Shown one piece after another: positions 21,223-51,931 of a stretch of DNA of 64,000 nt (position 1 is its first letter; each line of letters begins with the position of its first letter). The position numbers and the translations under genes are program-made. The notes under the pieces were generated by a model. It searched no databases, was not told the origin of the DNA, and worked only from the letters and a program-made list of their open reading frames with translations. The DNA is from Affinirhizobium straminoryzae (GTDB taxonomy: Bacteria > Pseudomonadota > Alphaproteobacteria > Rhizobiales > Rhizobiaceae), in contig NZ_VJMG01000047.1 in assembly GCF_007004135.1 (NCBI RefSeq), positions 1-64,000 on the forward strand, read 5' to 3'.

Positions 21223-21350
21223 GAGCAATCGAGGGTTGTCGACGGCGCCGCCGGATTAAATCTTCGTCACTTTCGCGAATCGGAGCTGATTCGGGTTCCC
21301 GCCACTTGAACGCACGGGCGGGACAGCGCATATTTCAGGCATGCTTGCTG

Positions 21351-21407
21351 AGGCTCCGCAGCGGCGCCAGGGTTTCAAGGCCCGACACCGTAGCAACACC
21401 GGAGCTT
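21351..21407 (+). ncRNA. candidate ybhL leader RNA upstream of the BI-1 family gene
   Basis: The leader folds into a nested hairpin: outer stem AGGCTCCG (21351-21358) with CGGAGCTT (21400-21407), inner pairs CGG/CCG (21362-21364 with 21388-21390) and GGG/CCC (21370-21372 with 21381-21383). The Shine-Dalgarno GAGAGGA follows directly. Established knowledge: a ybhL motif of unknown ligand has been described upstream of ybhL-family genes in Rhizobiales. Position and gene family fit, but I have not compared it with the covariance model. Confidence 0.55.
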
Positions 21408-21419
21408 TGAGAGGACGAT

Positions 21420-26373: not shown

Positions 26374-27972
26374 ATGGCGCTGGGTTTCATCAAAAAAGTC
26401 TTCTCGTTCGGCAAGGACAAGCCGGCCACGGAAGACGACAAGGCACCGGAAGGTCTGACGGTCGAGGAACAGGCAGCCATCGCCGCCGAGGCCGAACCGC
26501 ATGCCCGCAGCGAGGATCTGCCGGTCTCGCCGGTCGACCCGGTCTCGCTTGCCGAAATGGAAACGGCCGGCGGCCCGGCGGATGACGATGCGGATGACGC
26601 CGCCGATCTGCTGACGGCAGCCGCAGCCCCCGGCGACCTCGGTATGGTGCCGCTGGCGCTGCTGGAGGCGGAAGAAGACGCCGTTGCGCACCCCCCTGGT
26701 GATGTGCCCGCGACGCCCCCCTCTGCCCTGCCGGGCATCTCCCCCTCAAGGGGGGAGATCGACTCGCAGCAAGGGGACGGATCCCTCACCGACGCTGCGC
26801 ATGTTGAAGCGTCACGGGAAGAGCCGGATTCCTCCAACCGGGATTTGGTTGGGGAAAGCAAAAGCCCGGAAGCGATCTCCCCCCTTGAGGGGGAGATGTC
26901 CGGCGGGACAGAGGGGGGTGACGCGTCTGCTGCCGTTTCCTCTTTCTTGACCGAGGCGGAAACACCACCGCTGACCGCCGACCCCGCCCTTCCCAAGGGT
27001 TTTGCCACGCGCAAAGTGGAAGCGCCGGTGGTGGAGGCAGCGCCGCAGCCAAAACTCTCCTGGTTCCAGAAGCTGCGGCAGGGCCTGTCGCGGACGTCAG
27101 CGCAGCTGACCGGACAGATCGCCGCCCTCTTCACCAAGCGCAAGCTGGACGAGGCCACGCTGGAGGAGCTGGAAGACCTGCTGATCCAGGCCGATCTCGG
27201 TGTCGAGACCGCGATGCGCATCACCGACACGCTCTCGTCCGAGCGCTACGGCAAGGACGTGACGGGCGAGGACGTCTCGCGCATCATGGCGACGGAGATC
27301 ACCAAGGTGCTGACACCGGTGGCGAAACCGCTGGAACTCGATCTCTCGCACAAGCCGCACGTCATCCTCGTCGTCGGCGTGAACGGCACCGGCAAGACGA
27401 CGACGATCGGCAAGCTGGCGGCAAAACTTTCCGGCTCCGGCCTCAAGGTGATGCTGGCGGCGGGCGACACCTTCCGTGCCGCAGCCATCGAGCAGCTGAA
27501 GATCTGGGCCGACCGCACCAACTCGGAATTCATCGGCACCAGGCTCGGCGCCGATGCCGCGGGCCTTGCCTATGACGCCTTCGAACAGGCGCGGGCGAAG
27601 AAATGCGACGTGCTGATCATCGATACCGCCGGCCGCCTGCAGAACAAGGCGGAACTGATGGCGGAGCTGGAAAAGATCGTCCGCGTGCTCGGCAAGCTCG
27701 ATCCGGATGCGCCGCACACGGTGCTGCAGACGCTGGACGCCACGACCGGCCAGAACGCCATGAACCAGGTGGAGATCTTCCGCAACGTGGCGGGCGTCGG
27801 CGGCCTGATCATGACCAAGCTCGACGGCACGGCGCGCGGCGGCATTCTGGTGGCGATTGCCGCCAAGCACAAGCTGCCGGTCTATTTCATCGGCGTCGGC
27901 GAAGGGATCGACGATCTCGAACCCTTCGAAGCCGGTGATTTTGCCCGCGCCATTGCCGGCCTGACGCATTGA
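26374..27972 (+). CDS. ftsY: signal recognition particle receptor FtsY (with repeat-derived insert)
   Basis: A 532-residue SRP receptor GTPase at the inner membrane that docks ribosome-SRP complexes with the translocon. The N-terminal acidic A region spans about residues 1-225, the four-helix N domain about 226-320, and the GTPase domain has G1 GVNGTGKTT at 335-343, DTAGRL from 417 and TKLDG from 481. Residues about 114-183 are encoded by a rhizobial-type palindromic repeat lying in frame within the A region (26714-26920). The NG core is unaffected, so function is expected to remain. Confidence 0.97.
   Translation: MALGFIKKVFSFGKDKPATEDDKAPEGLTVEEQAAIAAEAEPHARSEDLPVSPVDPVSLAEMETAGGPADDDADDAADLLTAAAAPGDLGMVPLALLEAEEDAVAHPPGDVPATPPSALPGISPSRGEIDSQQGDGSLTDAAHVEASREEPDSSNRDLVGESKSPEAISPLEGEMSGGTEGGDASAAVSSFLTEAETPPLTADPALPKGFATRKVEAPVVEAAPQPKLSWFQKLRQGLSRTSAQLTGQIAALFTKRKLDEATLEELEDLLIQADLGVETAMRITDTLSSERYGKDVTGEDVSRIMATEITKVLTPVAKPLELDLSHKPHVILVVGVNGTGKTTTIGKLAAKLSGSGLKVMLAAGDTFRAAAIEQLKIWADRTNSEFIGTRLGADAAGLAYDAFEQARAKKCDVLIIDTAGRLQNKAELMAELEKIVRVLGKLDPDAPHTVLQTLDATTGQNAMNQVEIFRNVAGVGGLIMTKLDGTARGGILVAIAAKHKLPVYFIGVGEGIDDLEPFEAGDFARAIAGLTH
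26714..26920. repeat. RIME-like palindromic repeat inside the ftsY coding region
   Basis: Two 48-bp arms (26714-26761 and 26873-26920) are inverted copies identical at 44 of 48 positions, around a 111-bp centre. Each arm also holds a small palindrome of the form ATCTCCCC...GGGGAGAT, and the centre holds CCAACC/GGTTGG (26834-26839 with 26847-26852). The element is 207 bp, a multiple of three, and keeps the frame open. Its look, mosaic palindromes rich in CCCCCT/AGGGGG, is that of rhizobial intergenic mosaic repeats. No other copy is seen in this window. Confidence 0.85.
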
Positions 27973-45626: not shown

Positions 45627-46133
45627 TTATTCCGATGCTGCTGCCGCTGCGGCTTCTGCTGCTGCCTTTTCGGCGGCGAGAGCCTGTGCTGCTGCAACCT
45701 TTTCCGCTTCGACGCGTGCGCGCTCTTCAGCGGCTGCACTGCGCTCGGCTTCGTTGAGCTTGCGGGCGCGGATGTTGGTAGCTTCAACGATACGGGCCGA
45801 CTTGCCGCGACGATCGCGCAGGTAGTAGAGCTTGGCGCGACGGACCTTGCCGCGACGAACGACTTCGACGCTTTCGACCATCGGGGAGTAGACCGGGAAG
45901 ACGCGCTCGACGCCTTCGCCATAGGAGATCTTGCGAACGGTGAAGCTTTCGTTGATGCCGCCGCCGGAGCGGGCGATGCAAACGCCTTCATAGGCCTGAA
46001 CGCGGGTACGGTTGCCTTCCGTTACCTTCACGTTGACGCGCAGCGTATCACCCGGGGAAAATTCCGGAAGCTTGCGAATGGCTTCGATCTTGGCAACCTG
46101 TTCGGCTTCCAACTGAGCGATGATGTTGGTCAT
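45627..46133 (-). CDS. rplS: 50S ribosomal protein L19
   Basis: A 168-residue ribosomal protein at the 30S-50S interface. The L19 core (residues 1-115; [13 protein letters not shown], then [16 protein letters not shown]) is intact. About 50 further residues form an Ala/Glu-rich helical tail, as in many alphaproteobacteria. Start M-T-N-I-I-A-Q-L at 46133; the frame is open further upstream without similarity. In E. coli rplS directly follows trmD; here an opposing TSUP gene lies between. Confidence 0.97.
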
Positions 46134-46413
46134 GTTAACCTCTGAGTTCTTCTGAAACAGCCAGAGCGCCCAAACCGCGACATCCTCGGACCATGCCTTG
46201 GAGCCGTGCCCTTGCGGGCAGGGGCGAATTCGCCATCCTTTGTTTCGGTCAACGGGAGAATATCCCTTGTCCGTGCGGGGGCCATTACACGAAACTGTCA
46301 CGCTTGTCACCCCGCCCCGCGCTGAATCTGCCGAAAGATCCGGTGAAACCCGGCTTGTGGCAACGGCCCATGCCGTTTATCTGCAAAGGCAACGGGGTTT
46401 GGGAGGACACCGC

Positions 46414-47160
46414 ATGACATTGTCGATGATCGGGCTGCTGTTCGTGGCCGGCTTTCTGTCGGGCGCGGTGAACGCGATTGCCGGCGGCGGCACCTTTCTC
46501 ACCTTCGGCGCCCTGACGCTGGCCGGCATTCCACCGATTTCCGCCAATGCCACCTCCTCGATCGTCCAGTTTCCGGGTTATGTCACCTCCACGCTCGCCT
46601 ACAAGGACGAGCTTCTGAAGCGCTGGCGCAGCGCCGTGGCGCTGACGCTTGTCTCGGCCCTCGGTGGGCTTGCCGGCGCGCTGATCCTGCTGGCGCTCTC
46701 CAACCCCTCCTTCCGGGCACTGGTGCCCTGGCTGCTGACCGCGGCAACGGCCATCTTCGCAGCCGGCCCGCTTCTGCAGCCGAAGGCCACCGCCGAGCGC
46801 TCCGCAAGCTCGCTCTCCAGCCTCGCCGGGCAGGGAGTGACTGCGATCTATGGCGGCTTCTTCGGCGCCGGCATGGGCATCATGATGCTCGCCGTGCTGG
46901 GACTGACGACCGGCGGCAGCTATCATCATCTGAATGCGCTGAAGAACCTGCTCGCAACCGTCATCGCGGCAGTTGCCATCATCGTCTTCGTCAGCGGCGG
47001 CGTGGTCGCCTGGCCGCAGGCAATCGTGATGATCCCGGCCGTGGCAGCCGGCGGCTATGCCGGCGTGTGGGCGGCACGGCGCGTGCCACAAACCATCATG
47101 CGGATGATCGTGGTGGCTGTCGGTGCCGCCCTGATCATCTATTACTTCGTCACCGGCTGA
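46414..47160 (+). CDS. TSUP (TauE/SafE) family sulfite/anion transporter
   Basis: A 248-residue membrane protein with about eight helices and two half-repeats, each with a Gly-rich motif ([14 protein letters not shown] and [13 protein letters not shown]). The family exports sulfite or sulfonates or takes up other anions; the substrate here is unknown. GGGAGGA precedes ATG 46414. It runs against the surrounding ribosomal operon and its 3' end overlaps that of trmD by 19 bases. Confidence 0.93.
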
Positions 47161-47852
47161 GAGGGTTTTGCAAGCAGATCCGGGCGGCGCTCCTTCGTCA
47201 GCGCGAGCGCCTGCTCGTGCCGCCAGCGTTCGATGGCAGCATGGTTGCCGGAGGTGAGCACGGCGGGAATGCCCTGCCCTTCGAACTCCTGCGGCCGGGT
47301 ATAGTGGGGATGTTCCAGAAGCCCGGTCTCGAAGCTTTCATGCGTGCCGGAGGCGGCATTGCCCATGACGCCCGGCAGGATGCGCACCACGGCGTCGAGC
47401 AGCGTCAGCGCCGCCGGTTCACCACCGGAGAGAATATAGTCGCCGATCGAGACTTCCTCGAGCGCCCGTGCATCGATGACCCGCTGGTCGACCCCTTCGA
47501 AGCGGCCGCAGACGATCACCACCCCCTCGCCCTCCGCCAGTTGACGCACCCGCTCCTGCGTCAGCGGACGACCGCGCGGGCTCATCAGCAGGCGCGGACG
47601 CCAGTCAGTTGCCACCGAATCGATGGCGCGCGCCAAGACGTCCGGCTTCAGCACCATGCCGGCACCGCCGCCGGCCGGCGTATCGTCCACCGTCCGGTGC
47701 CGGTCGGTCGCAAAATCGCGGATCTGCACCGTCTCCAGCGACCAGTCGCCCCGTTCCAGGGCCTTGCCGGCCAGAGAATGGCCGAGATGGCCCGGAAACA
47801 TGTCGGGATAGAGCGTCAGGATGGTGGCGCGATAGGGCATGGCGGCCGTCAC
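47142..47852 (-). CDS. trmD: tRNA (guanine-N1)-methyltransferase
   Basis: A 236-residue SPOUT methyltransferase making m1G37 in tRNA. The trefoil-knot SAM site covers [17 protein letters not shown], then [13 protein letters not shown] and [14 protein letters not shown]. Both the start (ATGA overlap with the rimM stop, 47849-47852) and operon place match. Its last 19 bases overlap the convergent TSUP gene, so no separate terminator exists here. Confidence 0.97.
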
Positions 47853-48460
47853 TCCGCCTCGCCCTTCGGCTTGCGGCCGGATTTGCCGCCCGTCTTGCCG
47901 CCCGTCTTGCCATTCGGCTCGGGCGGCGCATCCTCGTCCGGCGTCTCGACCAGACCGGCAGCGACCGGATCGACCAGGATGCGGCCGGCGTCCAGGTCGA
48001 TTTCCAGCACGGCCGCCTCGGAGAAGGGAATGAGCGTCGGGCGACGACCCGGTCCCTTGAGCTCCAGAAGATCGCCTGCGCCGAAATCGAAGACGCCGCT
48101 CACCTGGCCGTAGCTGTTTCCCTCGGCATCGACGGCTTCGAGCCCTTCCAGGTCGGCGTAGAAGAATTCGTCTTCGTCCAGTTCCTCGTCCGGCAGGTTG
48201 TCGCGGTCGATGAACAATTCAAGCCCGTTCAGCGCCTCGGCGGCATTGCGGTCGTTGACGCCGCGGAACCTCACGATCACGACATTTTTCGCCTCGCGGA
48301 TCTCGAGGATCTCGAAGACGCGGCCGTCGGCGCTGTGCAAATTGCCGTAATCGCCGAGCGCCAGCGGATCGGCGGTGAAGGCGCGCACGCGAACCTCGCC
48401 GCGCAGGCCCTGCGCCGCGCCGATCGTTGCCATCAGGACGGGGTTTTCCAGCTTGGCCAT
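47849..48460 (-). CDS. rimM: ribosome maturation factor RimM
   Basis: A 203-residue factor for 30S head assembly that binds S19. The RimM N-domain ([15 protein letters not shown]) and the PRC-barrel half ([19 protein letters not shown]) are in order. About 25 extra residues at the C-terminus are Gly/Lys-rich ([17 protein letters not shown]). The start at 48460 has GGGAG before it; the frame extends 41 residues upstream without similarity. Confidence 0.96.
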
Positions 48461-48601: not shown

Positions 48602-48967
48602 TTATTCGGCAGCAGCAGCTTCAGCGGCTTCGGCAGCCTTGGCAGCCTTTTCCTTGGCGCGCTCGACAGCCTTCTTGCCGGGCTGAGCCTTGGTCGGGTT
48701 GCTGCGGGCGTCGCGCTCGGCAATGCCGGCTTCCGCCATGAAACGCAGAACGCGGTCGGTCGGCTGTGCGCCCTTGGCAACCCAGGCCTTGATGGCTTCG
48801 GCATCGAGAACGACGCGCTGCTCGTTGTCCTTGGCCAGCATCGGGTTCCAGGAACCGACGGTCGCGATGAAGCGGCCATCGCGCGGCGAGCGGGCATCGG
48901 CAACAACAACGTGATAATACGGGCGCTTCTTGGAACCACCACGGGCGAGACGGATCTTCAGGGACAT
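48602..48967 (-). CDS. rpsP: 30S ribosomal protein S16
   Basis: A 121-residue small-subunit protein. The core [18 protein letters not shown] and [12 protein letters not shown] is canonical. A Lys/Ala/Glu-rich tail of about 35 residues is added, common in alphaproteobacteria. It lies 66 bases after the chorismate mutase gene and 141 before rimM, in the ffh-aroQ-rpsP-rimM-trmD series. Confidence 0.98.
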
Positions 48968-49033: not shown

Positions 49034-49354
49034 TCAGGCGGTCTTTTCGGTTGCACCGCCATGTTCGGCGGCAATGGCTTCATGGTGACGGATGACTTCC
49101 TTGATGATGAAATTCAGGAATTTTTCCGCAAAGTCCGGATCGAGCTGCGCATCCTTGGCCAGGCGGCGCAGCCGTTCGATCTGGTATTCCTCGCGCGCCG
49201 GATCGGCCGGCGGCAAATCGTAAAGGGCCTTCAGGATGCCCACTTCCTTGGTGCAGCGGAAACGCTCGGCCAGCATGTGCACCAGCGCCGCGTCGATGTT
49301 GTCGATCGACTGGCGGTATTTGCCGAGCTGTTCCTTCACCTTCGGATCAACCAT
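49034..49354 (-). CDS. chorismate mutase (AroQ class)
   Basis: A 106-residue all-helical enzyme converting chorismate to prephenate. The AroQ pattern is visible: YRQSIDNIDAALVHMLAERF (R13, R31 region), K36 in TKEVG, and the second arginine helix EEYQIERLRRLA. It starts 10 bases after ffh and precedes rpsP, a placement typical of rhizobia. A PheA fusion is excluded because no prephenate dehydratase domain follows. Confidence 0.93.
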   Translation of the reverse strand: MVDPKVKEQLGKYRQSIDNIDAALVHMLAERFRCTKEVGILKALYDLPPADPAREEYQIERLRRLAKDAQLDPDFAEKFLNFIIKEVIRHHEAIAAEHGGATEKTA

Positions 49355-49364
49355 CGAAAAACCC

Positions 49365-50936
49365 TCACTTCTTCTTGGGCATACCGGGCAGGCCCGGAAG
49401 ACCGCCCAGGCCCGGGAGCTTGGCACCGCCGAGACCCGGAAGGCCGCCACCCGGCATTCCACCCGGCAGGCCCGGCATCGAACCCGGCTTGAAGCCCGCG
49501 GCTTCCGCCTGCCTGGCCAGCGCTTCGAGCTGCTTCGGATCCATGTTCGACAGATCCGGCATGCCGCCCCCGAGACCACCGAGGCCCATCTTGCCGGCCA
49601 GGCCGCCCATCATCTGCTTCATGATGCCGCCCTTGCCCTTGCCGCCCATAGCCTTCATCATATCGGCCATCTGGCGATGCATCTTGAGCAGCTTGTTGAT
49701 TTCGGCGGCATCCGTGCCGGAGCCCGCCGCGATGCGCTTCTTGCGCGAATGCTTGAGAATGTCCGGATTGGCGCGCTCGGCCTTGGTCATCGAGGAGATG
49801 ATGGCGATCTGCCGGTCGAACATCTTGTCGTTCATGCCGGACGCGGCCAGCTTGTCCTTCATGCCTGCCATGCCGGGCATCAGGCCCATGATGCCGCCCA
49901 TGCCGCCCATCGCCTTCATCTGGCGCAGCTGGTCGGCGAGGTCGTTCAGGTCGAACTTGCCCTTGGCCATCTTCTCGGCCATGGCACGCGCCTTTTCGGC
50001 GTCGATATTTTCGGCCGCCTTCTCGACGAGCGAGACGATGTCGCCCATGCCGAGAATACGGTCGGCGATGCGGCGGGGATGGAACTCCTCCAGCTCCGAC
50101 ATCTTTTCGCCGACACCGATCAGCTTGATCGGCTTGCCGGTCACGGCGCGCATGGAGAGCGCCGCCCCCCCACGGCCATCGCCGTCCATGCGGGTCAGCA
50201 CGAGGCCAGTGATGCCGACGCGCTCATCGAAATTACGAGCGAGATTGACGGCGTCCTGACCGGTCAGCGAGTCGGCGACCAGCAGAATCTCATGCGGTTT
50301 CGAGCGGGCCTTGATCTCGGCCATCTCGGCCATCAGCGGCTCGTCGATATGCGTGCGGCCGGCGGTATCGAGGATGACGACATCATGGCCGCCGAGCCTC
50401 GCAGCCTGCACGGCGCGGGCGGCAATGTCGGTCGGCGACTGGCCGGCGATGACCGGCAGCGTATCGATGCCGGTCTGCTGTCCAAGCTGGCGCAACTGTT
50501 CCTGGGCGGCCGGACGACGCGTGTCGAGCGAGGCCATCAGGACCTTCTTCTTGTCGCGCTCCGTCAGACGCTTGGCGATCTTGCCTGATGTCGTGGTCTT
50601 GCCCGAACCCTGAAGACCGACCATCATGATGACGACCGGGGCTGCCGCATGCAGGTCGATCGCGACACCCTCGGCGCCCAGCATCTCGACCAGTTCGTCA
50701 TGGACGATCTTGACGACCATCTGGCCGGGCTTGATCGATTTCAGGACTTCGGCGCCAACGGCCTTCTCGCGCACACGATCGGTGAAGGCGCGCACGACTT
50801 CCAGCGCCACGTCTGCCTCGAGCAGCGCACGGCGAACCTCGCGCAGGGCCGCCGAGACATCCGCCTCGGAGAGCGCGCCACGGCCGGTCAGTCCACTCAA
50901 GATGGAACCAAGACGGTCCTGGAGGTTTTCGAACAT
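49365..50936 (-). CDS. ffh: signal recognition particle protein Ffh
   Basis: A 523-residue SRP GTPase that binds signal peptides and 4.5S RNA. The N domain is at 1-95, G1 GLQGSGKTT at 107-115, DTAGR at 190-194, and TRMDGD follows. The M domain from about 330 is Met-rich. The last about 60 residues are a Gly/Leu/Pro tail (repeats of GLPGGMPGGG type). AAGGATG precedes the ATG. First gene of the operon leading to trmD; its leader contains a terminator-like hairpin. Confidence 0.97.
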   Translation of the reverse strand: MFENLQDRLGSILSGLTGRGALSEADVSAALREVRRALLEADVALEVVRAFTDRVREKAVGAEVLKSIKPGQMVVKIVHDELVEMLGAEGVAIDLHAAAPVVIMMVGLQGSGKTTTSGKIAKRLTERDKKKVLMASLDTRRPAAQEQLRQLGQQTGIDTLPVIAGQSPTDIAARAVQAARLGGHDVVILDTAGRTHIDEPLMAEMAEIKARSKPHEILLVADSLTGQDAVNLARNFDERVGITGLVLTRMDGDGRGGAALSMRAVTGKPIKLIGVGEKMSELEEFHPRRIADRILGMGDIVSLVEKAAENIDAEKARAMAEKMAKGKFDLNDLADQLRQMKAMGGMGGIMGLMPGMAGMKDKLAASGMNDKMFDRQIAIISSMTKAERANPDILKHSRKKRIAAGSGTDAAEINKLLKMHRQMADMMKAMGGKGKGGIMKQMMGGLAGKMGLGGLGGGMPDLSNMDPKQLEALARQAEAAGFKPGSMPGLPGGMPGGGLPGLGGAKLPGLGGLPGLPGMPKKK

Positions 50937-51248
50937 CGTGTCATCCTTCTAGACATTTGCCGGTCGAACCGGAAACGTCGGGTCTTCATCGCCCGAAAAC
51001 AAGACGCAAAGCCAAAAAGCACCCGAGGGCGCAACGCGCTGTCGGGTGTTGACCTCCGGGATCTCTTTATACCTTTGCGGGTCCCGGTCGGTGGCTAAAG
51101 TCTTGTCAACTTTGAGCAGATCGGCGTGCTTAAACCCGATGATGCCGCAGAAGTCAAGGCTTTCAGGGATTTTTGCGGGAACGCCCGATTTTGCGATGGG
51201 TCGCGCCTTATGGTAGGGTGAGCTTGGTTCATGGATCGGAGGCCGATG
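50937..51248. other. 312-bp divergent region between ffh and vapB
   Basis: It holds the ffh leader, the terminator-like hairpin at 51014-51048 and, on the minus strand, a TTGACA at about 51105-51110 that may be a -35 element. On the plus side the last 12 bases carry the vapB ribosome site. No coding frame is convincing. Confidence 0.5.
51014..51048 (-). terminator. terminator-like hairpin in the ffh leader (attenuator or sRNA end)
   Basis: CACCCGA (51020-51026) pairs with TCGGGTG (51042-51048), continued after a 2x2 internal loop by GCGC (51029-51032) with GCGC (51036-51039) around AAC. AAAAA at 51014-51018 forms the U run on the minus strand. It is about 80 bases upstream of ffh. No minus-strand gene lies upstream of it, so it cannot end a known gene. 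Confidence 0.6.
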
Positions 51249-51494
51249 ATGTCCCTTGACATTCGCGATGCGGAAATCGATGCCCTGGCCGGCGAGGTCA
51301 TGCGACGACTGGGCGCGAAGAGCAAATCCGAGGCGGTCCGCCGGGCGCTCCAGAACGAATTGACGCGGGGCGACGGCCGGCAGGCTCCAAAAGACAGTGT
51401 TACCAGGATTCAGGACAGAATTGCGTCTCGCATGGGAAGCCATCCTGCCCGTTACGATGACAAAGCCTACATGGACGAGATGTGGGAAGTCTGA
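51249..51494 (+). CDS. vapB: VapB-type antitoxin (Rv0623-like)
   Basis: An 81-residue antitoxin. The N-terminal MSLDIRDAEIDALAGEVMRR is a ribbon-helix-helix DNA-binding start, and the C-terminal KAYMDEMWEV tail would wrap the toxin. CGGAGG six bases upstream selects ATG 51249 over 51246 and 51231. The stop overlaps the vapC start by one base, so they are coupled. The pair is probably self-regulated by the toxin-antitoxin complex. Confidence 0.9.
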   Translation: MSLDIRDAEIDALAGEVMRRLGAKSKSEAVRRALQNELTRGDGRQAPKDSVTRIQDRIASRMGSHPARYDDKAYMDEMWEV

Positions 51495-51931
51495 TGTTCC
51501 TGGATGCATCCGCGGTGGTCGCCATCCTCGCCCGGGAAGTTTTGGCCGACGATCTGCTGAAACGCATTCGAGAGGCAGCCGATCCCATCCACTACACCTC
51601 CATCACCATGTATGAGGCGGTCGTCAGCCTTGCCCGGAAGACCGCAGTCTCGATCTACGGAGATCAGGTGCCGACACCGGCAGCGCTTCTGGCAGAAGTG
51701 CAGGCCGATGTAGAGGACTTCATGAACGCCATAGGCGCCATCGAAATCCCGCTCGAAACCGGCACACATCGGCTGGCGCTCGATGCGGCCCGCCGGTTCG
51801 GCCGCGCCACGGGCCATCCGGCAAGGCTGAACTTCGGCGATTGCTTTGCCTATGCGGCGGCGAAGGCGCTCAATGCGCCGCTGCTGTTCGTGGGGGAGGA
51901 TTTTGCCCGGACAGACATCGCGCCAGCCTGA
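51494..51931 (+). CDS. vapC: VapC-type PIN-domain ribonuclease toxin
   Basis: A 145-residue PIN nuclease. The acidic metal site is Asp4 (MFLDASA), Glu41 (MYEAVVSL) and Asp116 (NFGDCFAYAAA), with further acidic residues near the end. All are intact, so activity is expected: VapC toxins cleave tRNA or rRNA. It starts within the vapB stop. The set is complete, unlike the higBA locus at 29.6 kb. Confidence 0.92.
   Translation: MFLDASAVVAILAREVLADDLLKRIREAADPIHYTSITMYEAVVSLARKTAVSIYGDQVPTPAALLAEVQADVEDFMNAIGAIEIPLETGTHRLALDAARRFGRATGHPARLNFGDCFAYAAAKALNAPLLFVGEDFARTDIAPA

Follow-up and report, generated by a model that had tools for sequence, protein, structure and literature searches.

The hairpin in front of ffh in Affinirhizobium straminoryzae is a real and well conserved RNA element that is already catalogued, having been published as the "ffh motif". 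The hairpin forms the final arm of a more extensive leader fold (P0-P1-P2, with P3 in part of the family), and this leader is on balance probably a cis-regulator of the ffh-rpsP-trmD operon, with ribosomal protein S16 as the likeliest ligand; in the family of the analysed strain it would also end early as an RNA of about 110 nt. The window, that is, the whole stretch of DNA that was analysed, comprises 64,000 nucleotides. What the analysis adds to the published motif is the larger fold, a promoter and an argument for rpsP as the target.

Identity and conservation of the hairpin

On the minus strand of the window, positions 51048-51020 form a hairpin, here called P2, of 7 bp, a C.C and an A.C mismatch, 4 bp and a 3-base loop. 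The segment 51050-51012 folds with -18.9 kcal/mol (z -3.27 against 200 shuffles). After the hairpin comes a C and then UUUUU at 51018-51014 on the same strand, and 78 nt separate the end of this tract from the ATG of ffh (50936). The earlier note on this DNA described a GC-rich hairpin with five U residues about 80 bases before ffh, which is what these coordinates give, and it was also right that the hairpin ends no gene, because the nearest upstream neighbour (51231-51494, plus strand) is divergent. A generic terminator pattern alone means little because a scan of 2.5 kb returned 4 sites where 1.3 were expected.

The identity of the hairpin is given by the Rfam family RF01793 ("ffh"), a covariance model of 52 positions with a gathering threshold of 35 bits. 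The model fits 51063-51012 end to end (positions 1-52) with 68.7 bits and E 4.9e-11 when the whole window is searched, and P2 (51020-51048, minus strand) is its helix. The window has the bulged hairpin and the two conserved cytosines of the family (C.C 51041/51027, beside the A.C mismatch 51040/51028) in the place 5' of ffh, and its genome holds one copy. The ffh motif was first reported from Pelagibacter by Meyer et al. (2009); it consisted of one bulged hairpin ahead of ffh, with a covarying stem, and its transcript was seen in metatranscriptomes (PMC2704228). The window shares with the published motif the hairpin, the place before ffh and the two cytosines, but the published form is a single hairpin with ffh as its presumed target, whereas the window adds the helices P1, P0 and P3 (PMC2704228).

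The comparison between genomes is based on 159 loci, a chosen subset of the RF01793 matches, of which 59 came from searches and 100 were picked for spread over families and genera. The loci of the order were drawn among the matches listed, and weak matches are under-represented. Strands were set by hand for 23 loci, and two loci were set by hand after parsing. Most statistics refer to a non-redundant set of 137 loci, 136 of them with enough flank (122-124 in some tests); the loci are related, so counts are not independent events.

P2 is present in all 159 loci by construction, with the parser picking the best-pairing register, and under this rule only one cell departs from standard pairing across the six outer and three inner pairs. 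Of the 159 loci, 158 retain the C.C mismatch, and the inner stem hardly varies. The position next to the C.C mismatch is A.C in 127 loci and otherwise C-G (13), G-U (5), U-A (4), A.A (4), G-C (3), A-U (2) or U.U (1). The changes at position 51040/51028 and its equivalents follow the pattern of a base pair, which would fit tolerance of an A-C wobble. The conservation of the stem that the earlier note called for is accompanied by strong covariation: two of the outer pairs, followed through 77 sequences of the order, changed on both sides in 43 and 29 of them, and neither is ever broken. Ungapped column covariation recovers P2 clearly (top z 15).

Distribution and operon linkage

The element is widespread. 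RF01793 was matched in 280 of the 297 sampled genomes of the order (presumably Rhizobiales), 271 of them over the cut-off. A sample drawn from the whole class gave matches in 80 of its 289 genomes, with 64 above the cut-off, and none of the 14 control genomes matched. There is one copy per matched genome, except for two copies on two contigs in G128. A published table for Mesorhizobium huakuii assigned RF01793 to a plasmid RNA with a 441-nt transcript, which misfits the leader of a chromosomal operon (PMC5596092). In the text available of PMC7143759, ffh appears as the SRP protein only.

The operon in the window runs on the minus strand from ffh (49365-50936; domains SRP54_N, SRP54 and SRP_SPB) through a chorismate mutase gene (49034-49357; PF01817) to rpsP, which encodes S16 (48602-48967; PF00886), rimM (47849-48460; PF01782) and trmD (47142-47852; PF01746), and rplS, which encodes L19, lies on the same strand (45627-46310). 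Directly upstream of the leader are divergent genes for a VapB-like antitoxin and a PIN toxin (51231-51931, plus strand), where Sinorhizobium meliloti has dapF (PMC2573895).

The link between the element and this operon is close. In 155 of the 159 loci, or 156 once the orientation of one is put right, ffh follows on the same strand, at a median distance of 66 nt; of the others, one ends with its contig and two belong to the PS1/OCS116 clade. Outside this clade all 20 loci fetched have rpsP after ffh, and 18 of them have trmD within 5 kb, and in PS1 rpsP is the first gene; the element is thus a structured 5' leader of an operon that encodes S16. In 12 loci (L008, L020, L027-L029, L033, L067, L079, L092, L096, L099 and L101, as judged by eye) other genes stand between the element and ffh, with products that by eye are a short CPWSGKP protein (6), a secreted-looking protein (5) and a GST-like protein (1). 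The element is therefore tied to the start of the transcript and not to the start codon or ribosome site of ffh.

Promoter and fold of the leader

A conserved sigma-70-type promoter lies at 51157-51129 on the minus strand, with TTGACT at 51157-51152, a 17-nt spacer and TTTAAG at 51134-51129. TTGAC occurs between -160 and -75 of P2 in 130 of the 136 non-redundant loci, whereas an equally wide control stretch has it in 4 of 136, and the first two positions of the -10 element are T in 67% and A in 75% across loci. Transcription would start 7 nt past the -10 element, at about 51122 (plus or minus 2 nt). The promoter proposed earlier, TTGACA at 51109-51104, had to be abandoned: the hexamer 17 nt on is CGGGAC, which leaves it with no -10 element, and it sits inside the transcript from the conserved promoter. 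TATAAA in the loop of P1 was also rejected as a -10 element; it has no -35 element ahead of it, and by eye many loci lack TATAAA yet retain the pairing of P1.

P1 is a second, covarying hairpin directly upstream of P2 (51052-51092, minus strand; ACCGGGA ... TCCCGGAGGT). The RF01793 model contains only its 3' arm, as unpaired sequence. In a hairpin-constrained test of 136 loci, with the last pair limited to 1-9 nt before P2, the mean stem score was -7.44 compared with -2.4 to -2.6 at four control positions, and 38 of the 136 loci had their own 5' partner among the best 5%, compared with 8-10 of 136 in the controls. There are 90 distinct pairs of arms among 128 loci, and no P1 was found in 8. 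The varying length of its loop leaves P1 with a weak signal in ungapped column covariation (run z 5.5). RNAalifold on the 77 sequences kept three P1 pairs alone, with 6, 3 and 13 sequences broken or gapped, and free duplex-energy swap tests were flat both for P1 (mean z -0.17) and for the tail against the upstream sequence (mean z -0.22).

For the loop of P1 (51081-51062 in the window, minus strand), a sequence like CCCGCAAAGGTATAAAGAGA recurs in several families of the order (for example L017, L019, L065, L076 and L091). In other loci the loop consists of 4-5 bases.

The two remaining helices rest on weaker evidence than P1 and P2. P0 is a 5' hairpin (51094-51117, minus strand) in the minimum-energy fold of 51122-51012 (z -2.75), and by eye other loci have 5' hairpins too. 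P3 is a long-range closing helix (50998-51107, minus strand) in which 51107-51100 and 51096-51093 pair with 51013-51010 and 51005-50998; it excludes P0. P3 appears in the centroid fold, with a whole-fold z of -1.87 and 8 of 200 shuffles equally good. In a partition-function test of the 5' sequence before P1 against the 40 nt after P2, the expected number of pairs was 8.87 with the own tail and 5.58 with the tails of other loci, and the own tail beat all eight swaps in 34 of 122 loci where 13.6 were expected. Duplex swaps placed the own partner in the best 5% in 19 of 124 loci, and in 26 of 124 in the reverse swap (6.2 expected), and ungapped column covariation did not recover P3. P3 is thus supported in part of the family only. 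In the predicted fold of the growing window RNA, P0, P1 and then P2 form in turn, and P3 displaces P0 once 50998 has been transcribed. P0, P1 and P3 are additions beyond the Rfam model.

A strong hairpin is also predicted at 50979-50950 of the minus strand (GACGTTTCCGG..CCGGCAAATGTC), directly before the ribosome site of ffh. Similar stems of the GTTTCCG/CGGAAAC type are found in some other loci of the family.

Termination and the short RNA

The GC-rich stem followed directly by the U-tract has the form of an intrinsic terminator in the window, and the tract (51014-51018, minus strand) is the probable 3' end of a short RNA. In the window's family, presumably the Rhizobiaceae, 10 of 11 loci have a T-run of at least 4 after P2. 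Outside this family such a run is found in 49 of 132 loci (37%) compared with 3-6% at other offsets, and in 61 of the 132 the run is at most 2. With a lenient tail score, 90 of these 132 loci still pass a common cut-off, compared with 34-47% for the background. The RF01793 consensus tail has no U-tract, and the tail consensus of the loci has T at tail positions 11 and 12 in 90% and 92%. The U-tract is therefore favoured yet dispensable, and what is conserved is the folded part with the tail consensus. Some members of the family have the terminator and others do not, and termination is not the common function of the element because the tract is short or absent in 61 of the 132 outside loci.

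An unlikely, though not far-fetched, alternative is that the leader regulates nothing and that P1 and P2 only fix the level of termination or stability of the operon mRNA. The conserved promoter, the excess of T-runs after P2 in the outside loci and the fact that no antiterminator was found (see below) would all agree with such a role. A plain terminator, however, needs neither the C.C mismatch, kept in all but one locus, nor a nearly invariant inner stem, and the lack of a U-tract in the Rfam consensus also speaks against it.

Evidence for a short RNA comes from S. meliloti. A microarray detected the RNA Sm5 in the dapF-ffh region, with predicted ends at 3522271-3522379 and a second, more distal predicted start at 3522121 (PMC2573895). 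It was found again by RNA-seq as SmelC778, 115 nt in length at 3522269-3522383 (PMC2873474); in the published coordinates the RNA-seq end at 3522383 compares with a predicted terminator end at 3522379. The likeness to the window, which is one of layout and length only and not of sequence, lies in the intergenic place before ffh (dapF-ffh in S. meliloti), the orientation sense to ffh and a sigma-70 promoter and terminator 109 nt apart (PMC2573895, PMC2873474). From 51122 to 51014 the distance is also 109 nt, equal to the predicted Sm5 unit. By analogy with S. meliloti, transcripts in the window would begin above 51014 and not below it, with ends near 51122 and 51014. The earlier suggestion of a short sRNA thus holds in so far as the S. 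meliloti counterpart locus yields one, but the length would be about 110 nt and not 60-90 nt. The two S. meliloti publications differ from the present account in treating the RNA as a trans-encoded sRNA, the RNA-seq survey listing it as such and not as an mRNA leader, and no connection with RF01793 was found in their text (PMC2573895, PMC2873474).

That classification leads to a second alternative, that Sm5 is a trans-acting sRNA with a promoter and terminator of its own and that its adjacency to ffh is incidental to its function. The RNA of about 115 nt seen with two methods (PMC2573895, PMC2873474) and the good terminator in the window's family are in favour of it. It is nevertheless improbable. 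The single copy per matched genome, with G128 as the one exception, speaks against it, many lineages lack the U-tract, and a trans regulator would not be expected to keep so constant a place, which in the loci studied is ahead of the ffh operon or, in PS1, ahead of rpsP.

An sRNA inside an operon leader would have parallels. UpsM of Rhodobacter sphaeroides is reportedly an sRNA inside the 5' leader of a conserved operon, before the dcw cluster; by description, the only level at which the two were compared, it resembles the leader studied here as an sRNA within an operon leader and differs in the operon, which is the dcw cluster. The ffH leader RNA of Bartonella bacilliformis, likened here by name and not by sequence, is expressed and called a leader RNA, and no mechanism for it was found in the text available of that publication (PMC7717549).

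The PS1/OCS116 clade

The PS1/OCS116 clade (family f87), a marine lineage, provides a clean natural test of the target of the leader. It was represented by 18 draft genomes (G335, G440, G520 and G582-G596) with the named loci L185-L192. RF01793 was found in 14 of the 18 genomes. In 13 of these, and in 8 of 8 named loci, the element stands ahead of rpsP (the fourteenth genome, G590 with locus L184, lies outside this count). The start of rpsP is 61-68 nt from the pattern inside the 5' arm, or 35-42 nt after the hairpin, and trmD and rplS follow in 5 of the 6 named loci looked at.

The SRP54 GTPase domain, which is common to Ffh and FtsY, was not found over the cut-off in any of the 18 PS1 genomes, six of them nearly complete; G584 gave one sub-threshold match of 41 residues. 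The small SRP RNA was not found in the 18 genomes either, and searches with the SRP_SPB domain and with the window's own Ffh as queries gave nothing in three of three PS1 genomes. SecY, used as a control, was found in 14 of the 18 and in all six nearly complete ones, and 14 control genomes gave SRP54 in 14 and SecY in 13. The SRP RNA model is not fully sensitive, as it matched 11 of the 14 control genomes, 9 of them over the cut-off. These searches suggest that the signal recognition particle as a whole was lost in the clade, and a bacterial clade apparently without one would be surprising in itself.

RimM was found in 8 of the 18 PS1 genomes. It was not found in any of the seven genomes of genus g300 (G520 and G582-G587), two of which are over 90% complete, and five of these seven carry the element. 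At one g300 locus (L189:599-2325) the order of the operon is rpsP-trmD-rplS. If the absences of SRP and rimM are real, neither Ffh nor RimM is the needed ligand there, and S16, TrmD and L19 remain. The argument against Ffh depends on this single clade of draft genomes, because all 20 of the checked loci outside PS1 have ffh plus rpsP.

These observations bear on a third alternative, close to a suggestion by Meyer et al., in which the leader senses Ffh or 4.5S RNA, so that Ffh or free SRP regulates its own synthesis. The position of ffh downstream in nearly all loci fits this, and an ffh-regulatory role was thought possible, without a mechanism, when the motif was described (PMC2704228). It is still slightly more doubtful than a trans-acting sRNA. 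The element is kept in PS1, where no SRP54, SRP_SPB (three genomes) or small SRP RNA was found, and Meyer et al. saw nothing in the motif that resembles the part of 4.5S RNA bound by Ffh (PMC2704228). Mimicry of SRP RNA by the leader was likewise rejected: the three Rfam matches to 50930-51170 at E up to 10 include no SRP family.

Classical RNA-only attenuation, in which the formation of P2 is opposed by a leader peptide or by an antiterminator helix, has the terminator-like layout of the window in its favour but is very improbable, as there is no AUG within 51122-51014 (AUG starts only considered), swap tests of the P2 arms against upstream or downstream RNA were flat and no alternative pairing of the arms appeared in the window fold when the outer P2 pairs were forbidden. 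Of the attenuation put forward in the earlier note, the layout therefore stands, while the antiterminator partner did not turn up. Since many lineages have a short U-tract or none, attenuation by RNA alone is not how the element works in general.

Probable target and proposed mechanism

The cis-regulatory leader favoured here could work as follows. A structured 5' leader of P0, P1 and P2, with P3 as closing helix in part of the family, would be transcribed from a conserved promoter of its own. P2 and the U5 tract very probably terminate a share of the transcripts in the window's family, giving an RNA of about 110 nt, the presumed equivalent of Sm5/SmelC778 in S. meliloti, and the remaining transcripts would read through into ffh-rpsP-rimM-trmD. 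The function retained across the class would be cis-regulation of the operon, most likely as feedback by one of its products. The candidate ligand would be S16 first and TrmD or L19 next, but not Ffh.

S16 is preferred to Ffh because the element is kept before rpsP in a clade without detectable SRP, the g300 members of which also lack a detectable rimM. The target is thus taken to be probably rpsP and not ffh, with this one clade as the source of the argument. Ribosomal proteins commonly feed back on leaders. This, together with the S16 leader proposed in Flavobacteria, favours S16 among S16, TrmD and L19. The flavobacterial leader resembles the arrangement in PS1 in being structured, placed directly before rpsP, usually with rimM, and in having S16 as its proposed ligand (PMC7247131). 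It belongs to another phylum, loci of the window type usually have ffh first, and the likeness is one of description and not of structure (PMC7247131). Against the favoured explanation stand the poor U-tract in 61 of the 132 outside loci, the classification of SmelC778 as trans-encoded and the imperfect SRP RNA model.

A bolder reading, which is offered tentatively, is that the ffh motif is misnamed and may be the leader of an alphaproteobacterial rpsP-trmD operon, a multi-helix RNA bound by S16 (or TrmD or L19) that couples SRP output to ribosome assembly and whose target the SRP-less PS1 clade reveals. No link to rpsP in a clade without SRP and no mechanism for the ffh motif were found in the open-licence full texts, and the text available of a 2024 review states that nothing is known about the regulation of the trmD operon in E. 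coli. Should S16 prove to act on the leader, a single feedback through one RNA would link membrane targeting with 30S assembly and tRNA m1G37 methylation.

Two further features of the window were noted. The second SRP54-domain gene of the genome, presumably ftsY, lies at 27355-27954 on the plus strand. A second Rfam match, to the ybhL leader (RF00520, 59.5 bits), is found at 21340-21409 on the plus strand.
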